Source: an uncultured Sphingomonas sp. (GTDB lineage Bacteria > Pseudomonadota > Alphaproteobacteria > Sphingomonadales > Sphingomonadaceae). From it: DNA of 64,000 nt. This document shows positions 46,491 to 62,071 of this stretch, piece after piece; position 1 is the first letter of the stretch, and the number at the start of each line of letters is the position of its first letter. The DNA lies in NCBI GenBank assembly GCA_913775975.1, contig CAJYLQ010000037.1, positions 62,001 to 126,000 on the forward strand, given 5' to 3'. Position numbers and translations under genes: made by a program. The notes under the pieces were generated by a model. The model worked only from the letters and a program-made list of their open reading frames with translations. It had not been told where the DNA came from and ran no database searches.

Positions 46491-46567
<77 letters not shown>

Positions 46568-46720
46568 GCAACAATCAAGTAAACGCCTGTATTTACGGGT
46601 TTTTTGTCTTGCTGCGGCTGACCGCTCCCTCTCCTACTCCCACATCCGATCGCGGCTACAGCCGAATGCAGGCGAACAACGCCGGTCAAATGATCTGTAG
46701 AAAGAGCCTTTCACGGTAGG

Positions 46721-46975
46721 TCAAAGGTTGAAATCTATCTGCTCGGGCCGAACGTACCGAGGTGCCACGACATAGCCCTCGGCTGCCAAACGGCGCAGCG
46801 ACTCCGCGTGCACCAGCCGGCGCCGGCCGATCTTCACGGTTGTGATCTCGCCGCCCGCGACCAGCTCGTAGAAGGACGTGCGACCAATGCCAATCATGGC
46901 GAGCGCCTCCTTCACCGTAACAGTGAGAGGGTGCGATATGGAATGGGTGCCAGCCGGCTCCCGGATGCTCTTCAT
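46721..46975 (-). CDS. Excisionase/AlpA-like helix-turn-helix protein
   Basis: LTVTVKEALAMIGIGRTSFYELVAGGEITTVKIGRRRLVHAESLRRLAAEG. Confidence 0.82.
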   Translation of the reverse strand: MKSIREPAGTHSISHPLTVTVKEALAMIGIGRTSFYELVAGGEITTVKIGRRRLVHAESLRRLAAEGYVVAPRYVRPEQIDFNL

Positions 46976-47371
46976 AAACCAGACTCCTAGCAGGGAGGCT
47001 GGTGGGCTCTTCGACACCTGCAACGTACGGGGGTTCGACCACGAAGAACAAGTAGCTTTGAGGCCTACAATCGGAGGCTACTTGATCCCGATCGACTACA
47101 AATTTTCTCCACCTCATCAACGGCTTAGCCAATGTGATCGGCTGGGATCAAAAAACTAGTCGCTTGGGATCGGGATGCCGAAGCGCGGAAAAGCGCCATT
47201 TTTCGCACGCGAAGCTTGCGTTCGGTGTGTATATTCCCGCCCGGTCAACCCGCGAAGCCTCGCCACGGTCGTGAGCGGGCTACGATGCGCTATCTGCTCC
47301 GGTGTGGACTGTCTCCGCCGTGAGGCGGCATCTTGTTTGAGCTATCTGCCGCGGATCAGAGTTGTCGCCTC

Positions 47372-53496: not shown

Positions 53497-53880
53497 TCAT
53501 CGACGGCGTAGCGGCGGCAGGTCATCCACCTTGAAGCCGGGCGGTAGCGGCGGGAGCGATCCCCGGCCGCGACGCGAAGGCTTGGCCGGCGCGCCGAACA
53601 GGGCAGTTGGAGCTTCCTTGCGCGCATCCTTCATCAGATCCCCGACAGCTTCCTGCCGATCCTCGCGCGACATCGCGCGCCAGTCACCAGTCTGCACCAG
53701 CTCGTCTAGCCGCGGGTTGGCGATCCGCCCCGTCGCTTCCTGATAGCGATCGTGTTCGACATCGGTCAGTTCGCGGTCGCCGATCTTGCGCTGCGGCTTC
53801 CCTTCTTTCAAAGCATTCCTAAGATTAGCTCGCTTGCGCAACGACTGATCGATTTTCGGCAAATGCGGCAAATTACGTGC
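53497..53880 (-). pseudogene. C-terminal remnant of a larger (phage-like?) protein
   Basis: IGDRELTDVEHDRYQEATGRIANPRLDELVQTGDWRAMSREDRQEAVGDLMKDARKEA is tail-like; upstream part of the ORF is antisense to the 53890 gene. Confidence 0.4.
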
Positions 53881-53889
53881 AATCTGGGG

Positions 53890-54597
53890 ATGAACATGCC
53901 TGATCTTAAAGTGATCCAGCTTCTGCGACCTGATAAGGCAATCGCTGAAATCATTCACTACGCAGGGAGTGAAGTCGCAGCCAAACAAATCCTCATCGAC
54001 GGGCTACGAAGCGGCAAGCTTAATCTGACTGCTCGACATGCATGGGTGACAAATACCGGTGATGTCCGTGATGAATGGGTGCCACGCCAACACGGTGACT
54101 TTCCGTATCAAGAGAATGCCCTCGTCGAATCATCGAATTTTCGTGAGAGCCCCCGGTGGCCGGAAGAGACAAACCACTGGCGTTGGGAGAAGGGAGAATT
54201 CGTCATTTTTCTTGAGGAGGATCTGGAAGGTTGGGGGCGTTTCCACCGTATCTACATGAAAGATGTCGCATTTTATCGCGAAGAGGTTCTGAGTCTGGTG
54301 GGCCGCTCTAAACGAGGTGGAGGGCCAAAGTCTGATCGTGAGCGCTGGGCTATGTTTTGGATCAACGTGCTCTGGGACTTCAGCGACGGCTTTGATTGGA
54401 CGCAATTCGGAAGCCCGTACGAGCTGAAGCAAGCCTTCCTCAGTGCCAACGAGGATGCCGCAAACGAGCCTGGTGCACGTGGCAAAAAGACTATGTTTGC
54501 AGATAGTAACATCGATTTTGCCGTCGAGTTGGCATGGAAGCACCTAGTTAAGCGCGCAGCTCGCGAATCGATCAAGGAGCGCCTCGACCTGAGTTAG
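53890..54597 (+). CDS. Hypothetical protein
   Basis: 235-aa reading MNMPDLKVIQLLRPDKAIAEIIHYAGSEVAAKQILIDGL...; locally lower GC. Confidence 0.6.
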   Translation: MNMPDLKVIQLLRPDKAIAEIIHYAGSEVAAKQILIDGLRSGKLNLTARHAWVTNTGDVRDEWVPRQHGDFPYQENALVESSNFRESPRWPEETNHWRWEKGEFVIFLEEDLEGWGRFHRIYMKDVAFYREEVLSLVGRSKRGGGPKSDRERWAMFWINVLWDFSDGFDWTQFGSPYELKQAFLSANEDAANEPGARGKKTMFADSNIDFAVELAWKHLVKRAARESIKERLDLS

Positions 54598-54641: not shown

Positions 54642-54684
54642 TCCTCACCCGCTGCCTACCAGGCACTCGAGCAGCGGGTGAGGA
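54642..54684. promoter_or_regulatory. Perfect 14-bp inverted repeat with 15-nt loop over the RBS of the HTH gene
   Basis: TCCTCACCCGCTGC-(ctaccaggcactcga)-GCAGCGGGTGAGGA. Confidence 0.8.
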
Positions 54685-54693
54685 GAATGAGAG

Positions 54694-54873
54694 ATGAAAA
54701 AGACCTTCAGCGTCAACGGGGCTGCCCGGACGCTCGGTATTGGCAGAACCAAGCTCTACGAGTTGCTGCACGCGCAGAAGTTAACGAGCATCCGCATTGG
54801 CCGCCGCCGCCTGGTTCTTGCTGAAAGTATCGACAAGCTGATTGAAGCCGCTCGCGTCGAGGAGGGCCGCTGA
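54694..54873 (+). CDS. Excisionase-family HTH protein (59 aa, absent from ORF track)
   Basis: MKKTFSVNGAARTLGIGRTKLYELLHAQKLTSIRIGRRRLVLAESIDKLIEAARVEEGR. Confidence 0.82.
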   Translation: MKKTFSVNGAARTLGIGRTKLYELLHAQKLTSIRIGRRRLVLAESIDKLIEAARVEEGR

Positions 54874-54874
54874 T

Positions 54875-55768
54875 ATGCCCCGCCTCAGCGTCGAGCAGCT
54901 TGCTTTCGATCCAGAGTATGACCCAGCGACAGCGCCAGCTACCGCCATGGCATTCGAGTCGACAGACGCCCTATACGCACTGCGGGATGAGCGAGTGCCG
55001 ATCCTCCGCAGTGCCGCCGCCAACGTCGATGATGGCCACGCGGCAGGGCAGTTCTTGTGCCTGGCTCGCAGGCTTTCAGGGCGCAAAGTCCACCGCACGA
55101 TGGCCGATCCGCTGTACATGCACGAGGCCCGCCGGGCAGTCGGTAGCGGCGTATGGCGGTTGCTGGATCAGACTACCATCGGCAAGACTGCCCGGTTCGT
55201 GACCATCATCCAGCGCGATGCTCAGTACCGGGGGAACGAACCCATCCCGTTCGACCCCCGTCGGCTGAAGGGCTCACTGCAGTCTGCGATGAACCGCTGT
55301 GGGGCTCGCGATGCCGATGGCTTTCTGATGCTGTGGCTGGAGGGCGACTATCATCCACTCACACGAAATGGGCAGGCCCACTGGCACGGGCTTGTCGGCG
55401 GCGGGATGGTGGGGGTGATGGAACGACTCATGGAAACCGACAAGTTCCTCAGCTCTAAGGCGAGCACATTACGACCGCGCTATCGGCCCAACCTCGGCGA
55501 TCCTGTCATCGACCCGATACGGCTCCGGGGCCCATTGTTCGGCCTGCCGCGCCCGATCTTGTATTGCCTGAAGCAACGGTGGTGGGCACGGCCGGTCGAT
55601 GTCACTGCGGCGGACGGGCGATGGTCGTCGTTCGAGGCCAAGGCGAGGCCGATGCCCTGTATTCCGGAAGCCTACAGTCTGCTGTGGCGTGACCAGCACA
55701 GTCTGTCAGACATCACGCTTATGATGGGCGTGTATGTGGGGCGTGAAGGCTTAGCTCTCTCGAAATAG
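54875..55768 (+). CDS. Putative divergent HUH-type Rep/relaxase-like protein
   Basis: Candidate motif 1 ARFVTIIQRD, motif 2 AHWHGLVGG (HxH), motif 3 ILYCLKQRW (YxxK), in canonical order; follows an excisionase-like gene. Confidence 0.5.
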   Translation: MPRLSVEQLAFDPEYDPATAPATAMAFESTDALYALRDERVPILRSAAANVDDGHAAGQFLCLARRLSGRKVHRTMADPLYMHEARRAVGSGVWRLLDQTTIGKTARFVTIIQRDAQYRGNEPIPFDPRRLKGSLQSAMNRCGARDADGFLMLWLEGDYHPLTRNGQAHWHGLVGGGMVGVMERLMETDKFLSSKASTLRPRYRPNLGDPVIDPIRLRGPLFGLPRPILYCLKQRWWARPVDVTAADGRWSSFEAKARPMPCIPEAYSLLWRDQHSLSDITLMMGVYVGREGLALSK

Positions 55769-55939
55769 CGTAACTCGCGTATTCGAATAACTGGGCTGAA
55801 ATGCGTGTAAGTGCCCGGTTGGGCCAGCAAGATATCTGACAGGGCCATCAACGCCCTACTACACCACTGCTAACTAAATGTCACCCTACAATCGCTCACC
55901 TCTCGTGGCGCGGTAATGACCCGTCGCGTCCGCCATTTG

Positions 55940-55984
55940 CCCACATGCGCCAAAATATGTGGGGATAGTGGGGATTGTGGGGAT
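55940..55984. repeat. Three 9-bp direct repeats plus an inverted half-site (iteron-like)
   Basis: TGTGGGGAT AGTGGGGAT TGTGGGGAT at 55958-55984; CCCACAT (55940-55946) is inverted to ATGTGGG (55957-55963). Confidence 0.7.
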
Positions 55985-56010
55985 GACCTCAATCATCCGA
56001 GGACACGATC

Positions 56011-57591
56011 ATGCAAGCATATAACATTTACATCTTTGAAGCCGTCGCCGCTAGCGGCGTCGAATGGTACTTGGTGACCGGTGGAGAATACAGCATTTGG
56101 GTCAATAAAGAAACCGCAACCGACCCGATCAAACTACTGCGCGCCTTAGCGCGGGCGGGTATGCCAATCAGCGACAAAGAGCCAGCAAAGGCTCTTCAGG
56201 CGCGCTGGGAATTGCGCAAACCCTATAATGGCGTGCCCCCGCTCGATCGACCGGGCTCCTCAGGCAATGCTTTCGCGTGGCCCGACGGCGCTGTGGTCGT
56301 GCCCAAAGGGCATCCTGAGCCTGTGACCATTTTCCAGCCCATCAGCCATATGTTCCCCCGTCACGGTACACTGAAGGGTTGGCTGTCGACGGCGGCGACC
56401 TTGCACGACCAGCCGCTCCTGATCTTCGCGATGCTGCTCCCGTTCGCCTCAGCGCTTAAGCGCTTGATCGATCCGATCGAGGATACCCTCTTGGAAATCA
56501 TCGTGCCAACGTACGACATGCTGCCCATTCATCATGCTGTCGCATCAGTGACCGGCGGTTTGAGAGACGGCGTAGCCTATCAGGCGGTGACTTTCCTTGA
56601 GGCGCTGGGGCGCAGTCCCGAGGTCGAGGCTCATGTTGACCAACTTCTTGTTCTGAACGACGCAAGTCTTTTTTTCGCGTCCAGGGGGGCAGCGATGCGC
56701 GCAAATGATGCACGCCAGCTGCTATCGCGGCAGCTGCGAGCGGTTAGCGAGCCGCACTCGCCGTCCCGTATGATCCTGCTGGTCGACGAAACGCCCTTGG
56801 CGGGGCTTGTCGGCGAGGATAGCGACATGGGACGCCTGCTGTCGTCCGGTCGCATGCATACGTTTCGAATACCTCCGGGGCGACCCTTTGGCATATTCGA
56901 ACGCCTGCCAAAGGGTGTGCGGCACCCATACCAATGGGCGAACCAGCTCGAAAAAGAGATGAAAACGAACCGTGGCGTAGCTCATCGACGCTTCATTCGC
57001 TGCCTCGTTGAGAAGCGCGCCGATGATTCGCGCAATCTGCTAGCGATAATCGAACATCGCATGGATCTTTTCGCTTCTAAGGTTCCGCATGACTCGCGGG
57101 ATTCAGCGGTTGTAAGAACGATACGCTTCTTGGGACTTGTCTATGCCGCAGGCTATCTGGCGGAAAACTGGAGCTTACTCCCGTCCAATTGGAAGGTCGG
57201 CCCGCTGCTGAAAAGCGTATTCCAGAACTATTACGCTGCCCCTGGGCCAATTGTCCCGTTTCTTGGTGAGGTAAAGGCGCTCGTCAATCATCCTGACGCC
57301 CTGCACGTTGGGCAGGGGAAGCCGAAACTCAGCAAGAGCGCTCTCGACGCGGGATGCCTCTTCGTCGATCACGGGCGGCACGGGGTAGATGTTGTCATTC
57401 GCAAAAACTACCTTGGCAGATACATCAAGAATGGTCACCGGCGGCTGAATGATCGTGAGGTGGTTGAGTTGCTACAGCGTGACGGCCGGCACCAAACGAT
57501 TAAAAAGCGAAAGATTACCGGCAACGACACCCGCCTTTATGTTTTCCGGCTGCCAATTGACGTTTCGCCAAGCGACAACACCTCGGACTGA
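56011..57591 (+). CDS. Large hypothetical protein, DUF927-like without a recognisable Walker A
   Basis: GTLKGWLSTAATLHDQPLLIFAMLLPFASALKRLI resembles DUF927 cores, but no GxxxxGK[ST] follows. Confidence 0.45.
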   Translation: MQAYNIYIFEAVAASGVEWYLVTGGEYSIWVNKETATDPIKLLRALARAGMPISDKEPAKALQARWELRKPYNGVPPLDRPGSSGNAFAWPDGAVVVPKGHPEPVTIFQPISHMFPRHGTLKGWLSTAATLHDQPLLIFAMLLPFASALKRLIDPIEDTLLEIIVPTYDMLPIHHAVASVTGGLRDGVAYQAVTFLEALGRSPEVEAHVDQLLVLNDASLFFASRGAAMRANDARQLLSRQLRAVSEPHSPSRMILLVDETPLAGLVGEDSDMGRLLSSGRMHTFRIPPGRPFGIFERLPKGVRHPYQWANQLEKEMKTNRGVAHRRFIRCLVEKRADDSRNLLAIIEHRMDLFASKVPHDSRDSAVVRTIRFLGLVYAAGYLAENWSLLPSNWKVGPLLKSVFQNYYAAPGPIVPFLGEVKALVNHPDALHVGQGKPKLSKSALDAGCLFVDHGRHGVDVVIRKNYLGRYIKNGHRRLNDREVVELLQRDGRHQTIKKRKITGNDTRLYVFRLPIDVSPSDNTSD

Positions 57592-57631
57592 GGTTCGCGC
57601 GCTACGGTCATCGTGTCGGACTGCGCGCTTA

Positions 57632-57662
57632 ATGCCGCCGCTTCAGCTTGAAGCGGCGGCAT
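57632..57662. terminator. 31-bp perfect hairpin after the 526-aa gene
   Basis: ATGCCGCCGCTTCA-GCT-TGAAGCGGCGGCAT; 41 bp after the stop; no U-tract. Confidence 0.5.
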
Positions 57663-57917
57663 ACATCATCTCGGAGCCGCCAACCCAGCGCAGGTGGAGC
57701 AGTGGCCCGCAGGCGGAGTTGGGCGTATACAGCGAGCGGACATTTATGGTGGGAAGCGGCCTATCCGCTTTCGGGCGACCAATCGCAATAAGCAGCCATT
57801 TGTTAACCAGCAGGGCTAGGGGCGTGAACGGGGCGTTCCCTCGAACCGTGAGCGGACTTCTGACGTGCCCTTCTGACACTTTGAAACCGGCACGAACCCG
57901 TGCGTCAGCTGGACGGA

Positions 57918-57937
57918 TCACAACCGACCGGTTGTGA
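57918..57937. repeat. Palindrome copy 1: TCACAACCGACCGGTTGTGA
   Basis: 9-bp perfect arms, 2-nt centre; one base different from the copy at 60020. Confidence 0.8.
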
Positions 57938-58010
57938 CACCAGAACCCGCATTCGCCATTCGGACTGCTTTTCTACTTTTTAGAGGCGAACGCTCATTTA
58001 TTCGACCCGG

Positions 58011-58712
58011 CTAAGCTGCGACTAATTCAGCGATCTTAGTCGCGATCGCCGCCATCGACTCTTCGGAGGTGCTTAGCCCGGCCCGCGACGCAAGCAGGAG
58101 GCTGACCTTTTCGAGTTCCTCGTAGGTCGTCCCATGCACGACTGGAACAAGGCGCTCCCGCCGCAGCAGAGCCGAAAGCTCCTTGTCAGCGACACCCTCT
58201 GCCGGAAGCCGGCGTAACATCGCGGGCGTCACCAGCACGATCCCGACACGAGAGTTCACCAGGCCCTTGTCGATCGCCCGCATCATCGGCACGCCAAGGC
58301 CAAGGTCTTTCTCGCTAAACCACACCCGAACGCCGCGCGCTTCCAGCAGGTCATGGAGGTCTTTCGCTGACCCCTGACGATCATCCCAAGCGTGGCACAG
58401 GAAAACGTCTCGAAGGTCAGGCTGTGAAACGGCGAGGCTTTCGACCTCTTCTCGAACCGGTGTCAGCGCCCGTACCTCTTCGGGCGTGTACCACACCCCG
58501 GAACCTGACGGGGACCAGCGCGGCTTTGAGCTGCGCCGCCCGGTGCCTCCCGATGAAGAGGGGGACGGGGTAGGGCTATAGCCTCCGTAGCCGCTGTAAC
58601 CGCCGTAACCGCCGTATCCACCGTAGCCTCTCGACCGACCACCACAGGCAGGACAATCGGCTGCCGCTGCCGCCGAACGATGTCCCCTAGTCGGTGCAGT
58701 ACATCTGGCCAC
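58011..58712 (-). CDS. TIR-domain protein with N-terminal Cys/His motif and GYG-repeat linker
   Basis: DVFLCHAWDDRQGSAKDLHDLLEARGVRVWFSEKDLGLGVPMMRAIDKGLVNSRVGIVLVTPAML...ELSALL; N-terminus RCTAPTRGHRSAAAAADCPACGG then RGYGGYGGYGGYSGYGGYS. Confidence 0.9.
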   Translation of the reverse strand: MARCTAPTRGHRSAAAAADCPACGGRSRGYGGYGGYGGYSGYGGYSPTPSPSSSGGTGRRSSKPRWSPSGSGVWYTPEEVRALTPVREEVESLAVSQPDLRDVFLCHAWDDRQGSAKDLHDLLEARGVRVWFSEKDLGLGVPMMRAIDKGLVNSRVGIVLVTPAMLRRLPAEGVADKELSALLRRERLVPVVHGTTYEELEKVSLLLASRAGLSTSEESMAAIATKIAELVAA

Positions 58713-58814
58713 GGCGACCTCCCCCTTTCTTATTGATCTAAGCCGGCACTGAGATGGTTACATAGAGTTGACCGTTCAACGCGGATTTTACATCCGATTT
58801 GGTGATTTCTATCA

Positions 58815-59513
58815 TCATCGACCGCGACGCTTTGGACGATAGCCGTTCCGTCGTCGCCGCAATCCACGCTCGAACAGCTTATCGTGGAGCAACGCAGTCA
58901 GCCTCGCCTGCCATCCGTCCGTATGCACTACCCGGTCGAAGTGGGCGTCTTGGTCTCGGAGAAGATCAAGACGCGATCGTTGCGATACCGCGCTCCAATC
59001 TTGGTAGAGTAGATAAACCGCGTTGCCGTACTTCAAGTTCTCGAACACAACCAAATCGTCAGAAAATTGAGCTCCGAAATACGATCCGAAGCCGCCTTGG
59101 CCACGGATGTACGCCTTTGGCTGAAAACCCTCGAACAATTGCACCCGCTCTCGCACGTGCTTCTTGAAATCTGGTGCATTCGCGGGGTGCGCCGATCCTA
59201 CCAGCCGCGTCACGACCTCATCAGCAGTACCCGGCGGGAATATCTGCCAATCGAGTGTGACTGTGGAGATGTACTCCTCTCTGCTAGCATTGCTCGCGAA
59301 GACGCCGGTGACCCCGGTGTTTTCTTGGAGCATATTGATCGACCAGAGTAACATCAGGTCGAACTCGGGCATCCCTCGTTCGAGCATCGGAGACAAAGCG
59401 AATTTCACCAGGACCACGTTGCCGCCGCGATCTTCAAGGACGTGCGGCTCCACCGTCATTCCCTGTGGTTCAAAGATCTGATGTTGGTAAACGTCCTTTG
59501 TCCAAGAACGCAT
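58815..59513 (-). CDS. Hypothetical TIR-cassette partner
   Basis: 232 aa, MRSWTKDVYQHQIFEPQGMTVEPHVLEDRGGNVVLVKFALS...FSDDLVVFENLKYGNAVYLLYQDW. Confidence 0.7.
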   Translation of the reverse strand: MRSWTKDVYQHQIFEPQGMTVEPHVLEDRGGNVVLVKFALSPMLERGMPEFDLMLLWSINMLQENTGVTGVFASNASREEYISTVTLDWQIFPPGTADEVVTRLVGSAHPANAPDFKKHVRERVQLFEGFQPKAYIRGQGGFGSYFGAQFSDDLVVFENLKYGNAVYLLYQDWSAVSQRSRLDLLRDQDAHFDRVVHTDGWQARLTALLHDKLFERGLRRRRNGYRPKRRGR

Positions 59514-60090: not shown

Positions 60091-61248
60091 TTAGCCCATG
60101 CTGGCGGGAGGGAAGCTGCTTCGCAAGCGGATAGGAACCACCCGCTGGTCTAGGTAGCCCTCAGTCAGCCCAGCTATTCCTTCGACATCGCGGAGGTTCA
60201 ATCCCAAGGACGCCTCGATCTGCGCGCGCGTGTACACGCCGTGTTCGACAAGCATGCGGAGTCCCTCGGCTAACACCGTCGGCCGATTAACCGGAAACGC
60301 ATCGTCCAGTGGCTCGACCTTGCGGATGCGCTGACTGTTCATTTGACGGAATAAATACGAGAACTGGTTTTCCGAGAGGATGCCAAGATCCCGGCTACGA
60401 TAGGCCATCGATGCGATCGACACTCCCCAACGCGCCTTGAGCGTTTTGAAGTAGGCGATCGAGCTGCCGAGCACCTCCCGGCTGAAGGTTTCCCGCGGCA
60501 GCAGAAACGCGCTGGCGAAGCGGTTAGCCTGCTTCTCGATCATGTCGAGGTTCGAGCTACTCACCTCAACGTCCGGATGAAGGATGAGATGGGCGAGCTC
60601 GTGTGCGAGATTGAACAAGTCGCGTGGACCGCCAGTGACCTCCTCCGACAAGAGCACGATCGGGCGTCCTCCGATCCAGCAACTGACCGCGTCCATGTCC
60701 TGGCATCGCACTGGCTCACGGACCAACAAGATGCCATTCGCCTCCATGTTCGCGGCAAGATTACGGATCGGACCGCGGCCTAGACCCCAGTGGTCTCGCA
60801 ACCGCTCGGCGGCGCACTCAATGTCGTCATTATCGCCGCGCTCCGCCTCGAACTCGAAGCTGGGGAAATTCACCGTAGGCAAGTCGATGAAGCGCTCCAA
60901 CAGCGTGCCGATATCGCCCGCCCACTGCATCCGGCGAACAATGCGCCGACGGTGATGCTGCTCCATGCGTTTCAGGCTGCGGAAGAACGGCGCCCGCGGC
61001 TCGCCTGCCCGTGGCGGCGTGCAGGTAAAAAACGAGATCGGCTGTCCCGTCTCCGCGATAATCTTACTCATCGTTTCACCGCTGGGCGACGCTTGGCCGG
61101 TCTCGAACTGCGCCACCGCTTGCCGGGTAACGCCGATCGCGTCGGCAAACGCCTCGCCGGAAAACCCGCGAGCCTCACGCGCCTCTCTAATTCGTTCTGG
61201 AATCGGCTTAGCTCCGGCCGAGGCCGGAGCGGTACGATCGGTGTCCAT
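60091..61248 (-). CDS. XRE HTH + ImmA/IrrE metallopeptidase domain protein
   Basis: IREAREARGFSGEAFADAIGVTRQAVAQFETGQASPSGETM; zinc motif LFNLAHELAHLILHPD; EKQANRFASAFLLPRETF. Confidence 0.93.
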   Translation of the reverse strand: MDTDRTAPASAGAKPIPERIREAREARGFSGEAFADAIGVTRQAVAQFETGQASPSGETMSKIIAETGQPISFFTCTPPRAGEPRAPFFRSLKRMEQHHRRRIVRRMQWAGDIGTLLERFIDLPTVNFPSFEFEAERGDNDDIECAAERLRDHWGLGRGPIRNLAANMEANGILLVREPVRCQDMDAVSCWIGGRPIVLLSEEVTGGPRDLFNLAHELAHLILHPDVEVSSSNLDMIEKQANRFASAFLLPRETFSREVLGSSIAYFKTLKARWGVSIASMAYRSRDLGILSENQFSYLFRQMNSQRIRKVEPLDDAFPVNRPTVLAEGLRMLVEHGVYTRAQIEASLGLNLRDVEGIAGLTEGYLDQRVVPIRLRSSFPPASMG

Positions 61249-61262
61249 ATCGCTACCTGTAA

Positions 61263-61931
61263 TCAGGCTTTGTGGTCGAAATTCGACTCGTCAGTGTCCT
61301 TGCGCAGCGCCTCCTCGATATGATCACGAAAGCGGAGCACAACCGCCGGGGCGGTCGCCTCTGGCACCACCTCTACAAGGGGACCGAGGCGGCTCAGTAC
61401 GTTAGTCCGGGCGAGCCAGCTATTGCGGCCCGCCTCCGGCATTCCCCAGCAAAGGTGCGAGAGGTCGTGACCGCTCGCCCCAAACGTCAGCCACGCATAC
61501 AACTCAGGCTGAGCGGAAGGATGCAGCGGCACTACGACAGGATCGGTCTCGAATAGTTCAAGTTGATTGCTCAGGCGTTGATCCTGACGGGTCGGGGTCT
61601 CCTCGGGAAACGCAACAGCTCCGTCTGTCCGGCAGATATGGGCGCGGAATCGTCCCGATCGCACCTCAACCCAATGACCTCCGCCAAGCGGCATCCTCGT
61701 CATCTCGGATGCGAAAGGCAGATCGCCGGTTTTACAACTCTCATGCACGCTGAACAAAATCGCTGCTCGTCGAATGTGCCCCCTGATGTCCCCCCCGATC
61801 AGGGATTTTAGGAAGAGCTCATTATCCATCACGTCGCCGGCCAAACGGATCGCTTGGGACACCGAGCGCATCAACATCAGGTCAGTGTCAGCCGGGAACG
61901 CCTCGTCTAGCAGCTCCTGATACGATTCCAT
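61263..61931 (-). CDS. Hypothetical partner of the XRE-ImmA/IrrE gene
   Basis: MESYQELLDEAFPADTDLMLMRSVSQAIRLAGDVMDNELFLKSLIGGDIRGHIRRAAILFSV...; 14-bp gap to the ImmA gene. Confidence 0.7.
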   Translation of the reverse strand: MESYQELLDEAFPADTDLMLMRSVSQAIRLAGDVMDNELFLKSLIGGDIRGHIRRAAILFSVHESCKTGDLPFASEMTRMPLGGGHWVEVRSGRFRAHICRTDGAVAFPEETPTRQDQRLSNQLELFETDPVVVPLHPSAQPELYAWLTFGASGHDLSHLCWGMPEAGRNSWLARTNVLSRLGPLVEVVPEATAPAVVLRFRDHIEEALRKDTDESNFDHKA

Positions 61932-62071
61932 CGTGCACATCCATTCCGATCACGGCAAGCATATTCCCGGGTTTTTCATTCCGCGTCAAGTGGGGCGTCA
62001 AAGACAGCTCACCCTCTCTCAACCGACGGGATCGGCGATCGCCGCGTGTGGCAACGAAATCCGCATCGATC

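Follow-up and report, generated by a model that had tools for sequence, protein, structure and literature searches.

Organization of the module

The window analysed here is a 64,000-nucleotide stretch of DNA from an uncultured Sphingomonas sp. (contig CAJYLQ010000037.1 of assembly GCA_913775975.1). Towards its right end four genes follow one another on the plus strand: a gene designated V, a gene for a small HTH protein, a gene for a Rep-like protein and a gene for a protein related to DUF927 (Table 1). These genes are accompanied by two perfect hairpins and by a set of short tandem repeats (iterons) in the spacer between the last two genes. The contig is 126.8 kb long and ends 761 bases beyond the end of the window; the assembly comprises 2.79 Mb in 58 contigs and is 84% complete.

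Table 1. Features of the module and of the defence genes to its right (positions in the window)
Feature	Position	Strand	Remarks
V gene	53890..54597	+	No Pfam/NCBIfam match; same direction as the module
14-bp perfect hairpin	54642..54684	.	15-nt loop
HTH_17/excisionase-family DNA-binding protein (AlpA/Xis-like), 59 aa	54694..54873	+	TIGR01764, PF12728
HUH-type Rep-like protein, 297 aa	54875..55768	+	Motif I at 55196, HWH at 55379-55387, Tyr230 (YxxK) at 55562
Rep-helicase spacer, candidate origin region	55769..56010	+	Lacks the AACACT motif present here in 7 relatives
Three tandem 9-bp iterons, NGTGGGGAT	55958..55984	+	Upstream of the helicase gene
DUF927/Cch/SaPI-Rep-related protein, 526 aa	56011..57591	+	VPTYDMLP at 56503, LNDA at 56647
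Second hairpin	57632..57662	.	14-bp perfect stem, 3-nt loop; 40 nt past the helicase stop
ThsB-like TIR	58011-58712	-	PADLOC E 1e-114
RmrA	60091-61248	-	Defence gene
RmrT	61263-61940	-	Defence gene
Anti-phage dCTP deaminase	62571 to past window end	-	Defence gene

Most of this layout had been recognized in an initial annotation made from the sequence alone, which listed a 59-aa HTH protein, a protein with HUH-type motifs, a 526-aa ATPase-like protein, three 9-bp iterons, a 14-bp perfect hairpin and a 31-bp perfect hairpin. The HTH protein, the iterons and the first hairpin are as described there. The second hairpin is perfect and correctly placed, the figure of 31 being its total length in nucleotides and its stem measuring 14 bp. 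The HTH protein matches TIGR01764 (E 9.4e-10) and HTH_17 (PF12728, E 2.1e-8), both above the curated cut-offs, and an HTH of the same kind lies before rep in at least 10 relatives.

Two stretches flanking the module have counterparts in other genomes. To the left of the V gene, window positions 53497-53800 hold the C-terminal piece of a gene that is conserved in another genome, G1064; the DNA identity over 53510-53776 is 72%, and the gene looks disrupted in G1064 as well. To the right of the module, before the TIR gene, lies a dispersed repeat of about 200 bp (57743-57942), pieces of which occur at 70-94% identity in many genomes of the genus, and twice in some. An Rfam scan gave no match for this repeat and nothing above a gathering score.

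The Rep-like protein

The motifs on which the initial annotation had based its assignment of an HUH Rep are found at residues 108 (FVTII), 169-171 (HWH of HWHGLV) and 230 (Tyr of YCLKQ). Motif I (which reads FVTII in the window protein and FTxIP in several other members), HxH and Yxx[KQ] succeed one another as they do in HUH Reps. In 401 genomes of the order and, by profile, in 351 Sphingomonadaceae genomes, 14 further loci were identified at 20-31% identity, four of them added by the profile search; they belong to 13 Sphingomonadaceae genomes. A loose first look with the profile across the whole class returned the window genome only, and nothing outside Sphingomonadaceae. Scans of genome contigs revealed no close relative of the window copy, and searches for relatives in plasmids and phages found none. 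The window Rep has no useful E-value match in Pfam, NCBIfam or PHROGs, and its 14 relatives, taken as single sequences, have no match in these collections.

In the alignment of all 15 Reps, which is shallow, only G149, H171 and Y230 are invariant, while H169 is present in 14 of 15 and absent from the L028 member alone. In that protein (L028:9582-10478) the first His of HxH has been lost (GRH), yet the element has an integrase. The window Rep retains its catalytic-type residues and looks intact.

AlphaFold models were obtained for the window Rep (pLDDT 78) and for the family member at locus L020 (AF2, pLDDT 89, pTM 0.87); HxH is part of a long strand, and a helix further on carries the Tyr. Comparison of the modelled protein with HUH folds, as had been proposed, was supportive but not decisive. 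In a Foldseek search of BFVD with the window model, many top hits were unnamed, and the named ones were mostly microvirus replication initiators together with other Reps. Against PDB, neither model gave a match at E<=0.001, and the HUH Rep domains of circovirus, wheat dwarf virus, AAV and others recur among the weak hits. Profile-profile alignment (hhalign) of the Rep family with seven microvirus VP4 proteins, a single pairwise test with a weak result, gave P=0.0068 and brought motif I and HxH of the two families into register; the controls gave P=0.61 (reversed Rep family) and P=0.14 (helicase family). Motif order, the invariant His and Tyr and the alignment to microvirus initiators all favor the original assignment, and the family is likely to be one of HUH endonucleases of the Y1 Rep type. 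YfjJ/YagK proteins (the inovirus Gp2 family) were also considered as homologues and were rejected (hhalign Prob 0.2; PF11726 absent in 61 family genomes).

The DUF927-related protein

Relatives of the 526-aa protein match DUF927 (PF06048) at E 1e-24 to 1e-16. The window protein has no direct Pfam match and aligns over its full length with these relatives, through which its earlier description as DUF927-like is supported. Searched against PDB, the profile of the helicase family matches 8tch ("Pathogenicity island protein", E 6e-11) and 5dgk ("Active helicase", E 4e-7). DUF927 is present in Cch of SCC elements, a relative of the SaPIbov1 Rep helicase, and SaPI Reps recognise their iteron origin via the C-terminal domain (PMC7581432). 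A C-terminal match to HTH_56 (Cch) is given by the L021 protein alone and is sub-threshold (E 7e-4); the C-terminus of the window protein aligns with those of its relatives.

The term "ATPase-like" holds for the family of the protein rather than for the window copy itself. The GK[ST] of Walker A is kept in 10 of 10 relatives and occurs nowhere in the window protein, which has VPTYDMLP at that site and keeps 0 of 3 conserved P-loop positions; at Walker B, LNDA replaces xDEA. Conservation of the N- and C-terminal parts is close to that seen in the relatives, with 14 of 21 conserved residues retained in the C-terminal part, a figure within the relatives' range. Since both Walker motifs are changed and the terminal parts are kept, the loss of ATPase activity is strongly predicted, and the loss of DNA binding is not. 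The protein may survive as one that binds the iterons (GTGGGGAT).

Hairpins, iterons and a candidate nick motif

Within bases 1-60000 of the window, no spaced perfect stem of 14 bp exists besides the two hairpins of the module, and both fold far better than shuffled sequences (z -5.4 for the first and -5.0 for the second). The first ends 9 nt before the start codon of the HTH gene and overlaps its probable Shine-Dalgarno sequence. It was considered as a family-wide origin and rejected, being present in the window alone and not in the relatives. The sequence of the second hairpin is unique in the assembly and is not followed by a T-run. A hairpin of 10-15 bp is found 7-40 nt past the helicase gene in 7 of 11 homologous modules, and because its place is conserved and its sequence is not, it is less likely to be an origin than a terminator.

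Among random 160-nt stretches from the same loci, about 0.3% contain a tandem repeat as strong as the window iterons. Short, G-rich tandem repeats lie before the helicase gene in the window (p ~0.003), L036 (four copies, p 0.0009), L028 (0.011) and L037 (0.048); at the other seven loci the spacer repeats are individually not beyond chance.

When every k-mer in the 180 nt that follow rep was enumerated at 15 loci, a second element of the spacer emerged. Seven of the 15 loci have the sequence AACACT, with the consensus AACACT(GCA), at positions that fall within a span of 30 nt. None of 150 dinucleotide-preserving shuffles contained a motif as good, and the result holds when only one of the three most similar loci is kept. 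The motif is present at L022 and L027, both of which lack an adjoining helicase gene, and therefore it travels with Rep. AACACT(GCA) is thus a candidate for the Rep nick site, and its conservation provides a nick-site prediction that is directly testable. At the window locus, TAACACTGCA is not matched even when one mismatch is allowed.

Gene context in relatives

The earlier proposal named the absence of these genes from one another's company elsewhere as a finding that would speak against it. The order HTH-Rep-helicase recurs in 10 relatives: of the 13 relatives where the place after rep is visible, 10 have a DUF927 gene immediately there, the exceptions being L022, L027 and L029, where Rep has no adjoining helicase. 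Upstream of the HTH gene, two arrangements are seen. A divergent gene, designated U, is found in nine relatives (including L023, L027, L028, L029, L037 and L039), and the co-directional V gene is found in the window, L026, L038 and, weakly, L020. The V homologues at the matching place in L026 and L038 have phmmer E-values of 2.6e-14 and 6.1e-8, and it is the L026 protein that weakly resembles the one in L020.

Full-length tyrosine integrases with an arm-binding domain are encoded at L022, L025, L028, L029 and L037; L027 has a shorter recombinase. No integrase was recognised in the 20 kb read at L026, L036, L038 and L039, so that mobility rests on part of the family. Transfer RNA genes are close to many of the modules. 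The 3' end of a tRNA gene is the usual boundary of a tRNA-inserted island, and at L026 the homology to 18 of 19 related-genome loci ends within about 6 nt of the 3' end of tRNA-Ser. At L029 a repeated tRNA-Pro end lies beside the U gene; a search for att repeats in L028 found none. The cargo of the relatives varies, with a Hachiman HamB-like gene in L028 and, by reading, type I restriction-like genes in L023 and L027.

The window copy and its neighbors

That no integrase is visible, as noted at the outset, extends to the whole contig: the genome contains seven PF00589 matches, and none is on the 126.8-kb window contig. No tRNA end adjoins the module, no att repeat was found for the tRNA-Arg end of the window, and a DNA search across the genus gave no site at which an insertion of the window module has clean boundaries. 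The tRNA in question is tRNA-Arg(CCG), in window region 46491-47000, where a minus-strand frame after the tRNA resembles another HTH_17/excisionase protein, with no integrase nearby. Elsewhere in genome G982 there are 44-45-nt copies of the tRNA-Arg 3' end, which suggests that it is a used insertion site.

To the right of the module the defence genes listed in Table 1 are all on the minus strand. Within 58011-59513 the ThsB-like TIR gene adjoins one for a 232-aa protein, and no ThsA was recognised. The PADLOC models gave no match to the module proteins themselves.

Proposed function and alternatives

In intact relatives, the small HTH protein would serve as a directionality factor or regulator, and a tyrosine integrase would excise the element from the 3' end of a tRNA. 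The HUH Rep would then nick at AACACT(GCA), about 90-110 nt past the end of rep, and the DUF927/Cch-like initiator helicase would bind the short iterons immediately upstream of the helicase gene and unwind the origin. What was observed is which genes the elements carry and how these co-occur, together with their motifs, integrases and iterons, the positioned motif and one boundary at a tRNA end; excision, nicking, iteron binding and replication of the family elements are inferred from this.

The window module itself is probably the decayed replication module of this chromosomally integrated mobile-element family of Sphingomonadaceae. Decay is argued by the lack of an integrase on the contig, the lack of a recognisable nick site and the dead-looking helicase; an open frame of 526 aa with conserved N- and C-terminal parts would be surprising in a gene that had long been dead, and counts against it. 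The initial annotation had proposed an integrated element, self-replicating or satellite-like. The kind of element was for the most part rightly named, as the same genes lie in integrated, often tRNA-adjacent elements elsewhere, whereas a working self-replicating element is not supported for the window copy, with Walker A, the post-rep motif and, on the contig, an integrase all lacking. Most likely the window copy has lost autonomous replication and survives as a remnant next to defence genes.

Three other readings bear on this conclusion. The window copy might be a functional, non-autonomous element, with Rep supporting rolling-circle replication by means of a host helicase, the P-loop-less DUF927 protein binding the iterons in origin binding or copy control, and an integrase provided in trans or encoded past the contig end, which comes 761 bases after the window. 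The intact catalytic residues of Rep would fit, as would the C-terminal part of the DUF927 protein with its 14 of 21 conserved residues and the three relatives with Rep and no adjoining helicase, two of which keep AACACT. We regard this reading as unlikely, however, as the motif conserved after rep is absent here, neither a tRNA end nor an att repeat adjoins the module, and the search for close relatives gave none that shares the P-loop loss and could thereby show selection. It is very improbable that the three genes are kept for a non-replicative role, such as a part in the neighboring defence cluster or a regulatory unit: the relatives' genes sit with integrases, tRNA ends and different cargo, and no PADLOC model matches the module proteins, even though defence genes come directly after the module and the frames have stayed open with the P-loop replaced and the rest retained.

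The remaining alternative concerns the Rep protein, whose His and Tyr could be conserved for other reasons, for example as the metal or ligand site of a different RRM-like fold. The absence of a significant PDB fold match and of any family-database match, and the L028 member without the first His, would be compatible with such a protein. The order FxT / HxH / Yxx[KQ], the alignment of motif I and HxH with microvirus Reps, the viral Foldseek hits and the replication gene context make it quite unlikely, and an HUH endonuclease is the reading retained here. On that reading, a broader possibility may tentatively be raised, on rather less than even terms, of a hybrid replicon in sphingomonad integrative elements: a family of HUH Reps not described before, with a conserved nick motif specific to it, would be combined with an iteron-binding initiator helicase of the SCC/SaPI type, the latter having turned into an ATPase-dead, iteron-binding regulator in some lineages.

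Comparison with known systems

With SaPI Rep and SCCmec Cch the family shares the DUF927 AAA+ core (in the relatives), the profile matches to 8tch and 5dgk, short iterons at the gene and residence in an integrated element. The SaPI iterons are downstream of the gene (PMC7581432), whereas here they precede it. The partner here is an HUH-like Rep, no primase gene was recognised beside the helicase, and the window copy is without Walker A. Similarity to VP4 of microviruses (Gokushovirinae) consists of the aligned HUH motif I and HxH and the shared named viral fold hits; the sequence similarity is very weak, however, the Rep described here occurs in integrated elements beside a helicase, and no capsid genes were noticed.

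E. coli CP4-57 (intA-alpA-yfjI-yfjJ) and the PICIs of Gram-negative bacteria likewise combine a tyrosine integrase, an AlpA-like HTH protein and replication-type and anti-phage genes in one island. In CP4-57, by contrast, YfjJ shows no relation to the window Rep and yfjI encodes a DUF3987 rather than a DUF927 protein. As regards PICIs and phage satellites, no helper-phage packaging or capsid-interference genes were noticed among the ORFs read. A pairing of an HUH Rep with a DUF927 initiator helicase was not found described in the open-access literature searched. The Rep family provides a handle on often defence-carrying elements of Sphingomonadaceae that are missed by integrase- or phage-based searches. 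Neither Legionella fallonii plasmid III nor the other DUF927 plasmids checked encode a Rep of the window family; plasmid III is a 14.6-kb free circle that carries an HTH gene, a DUF927 gene and an integrase, as in the family described here.
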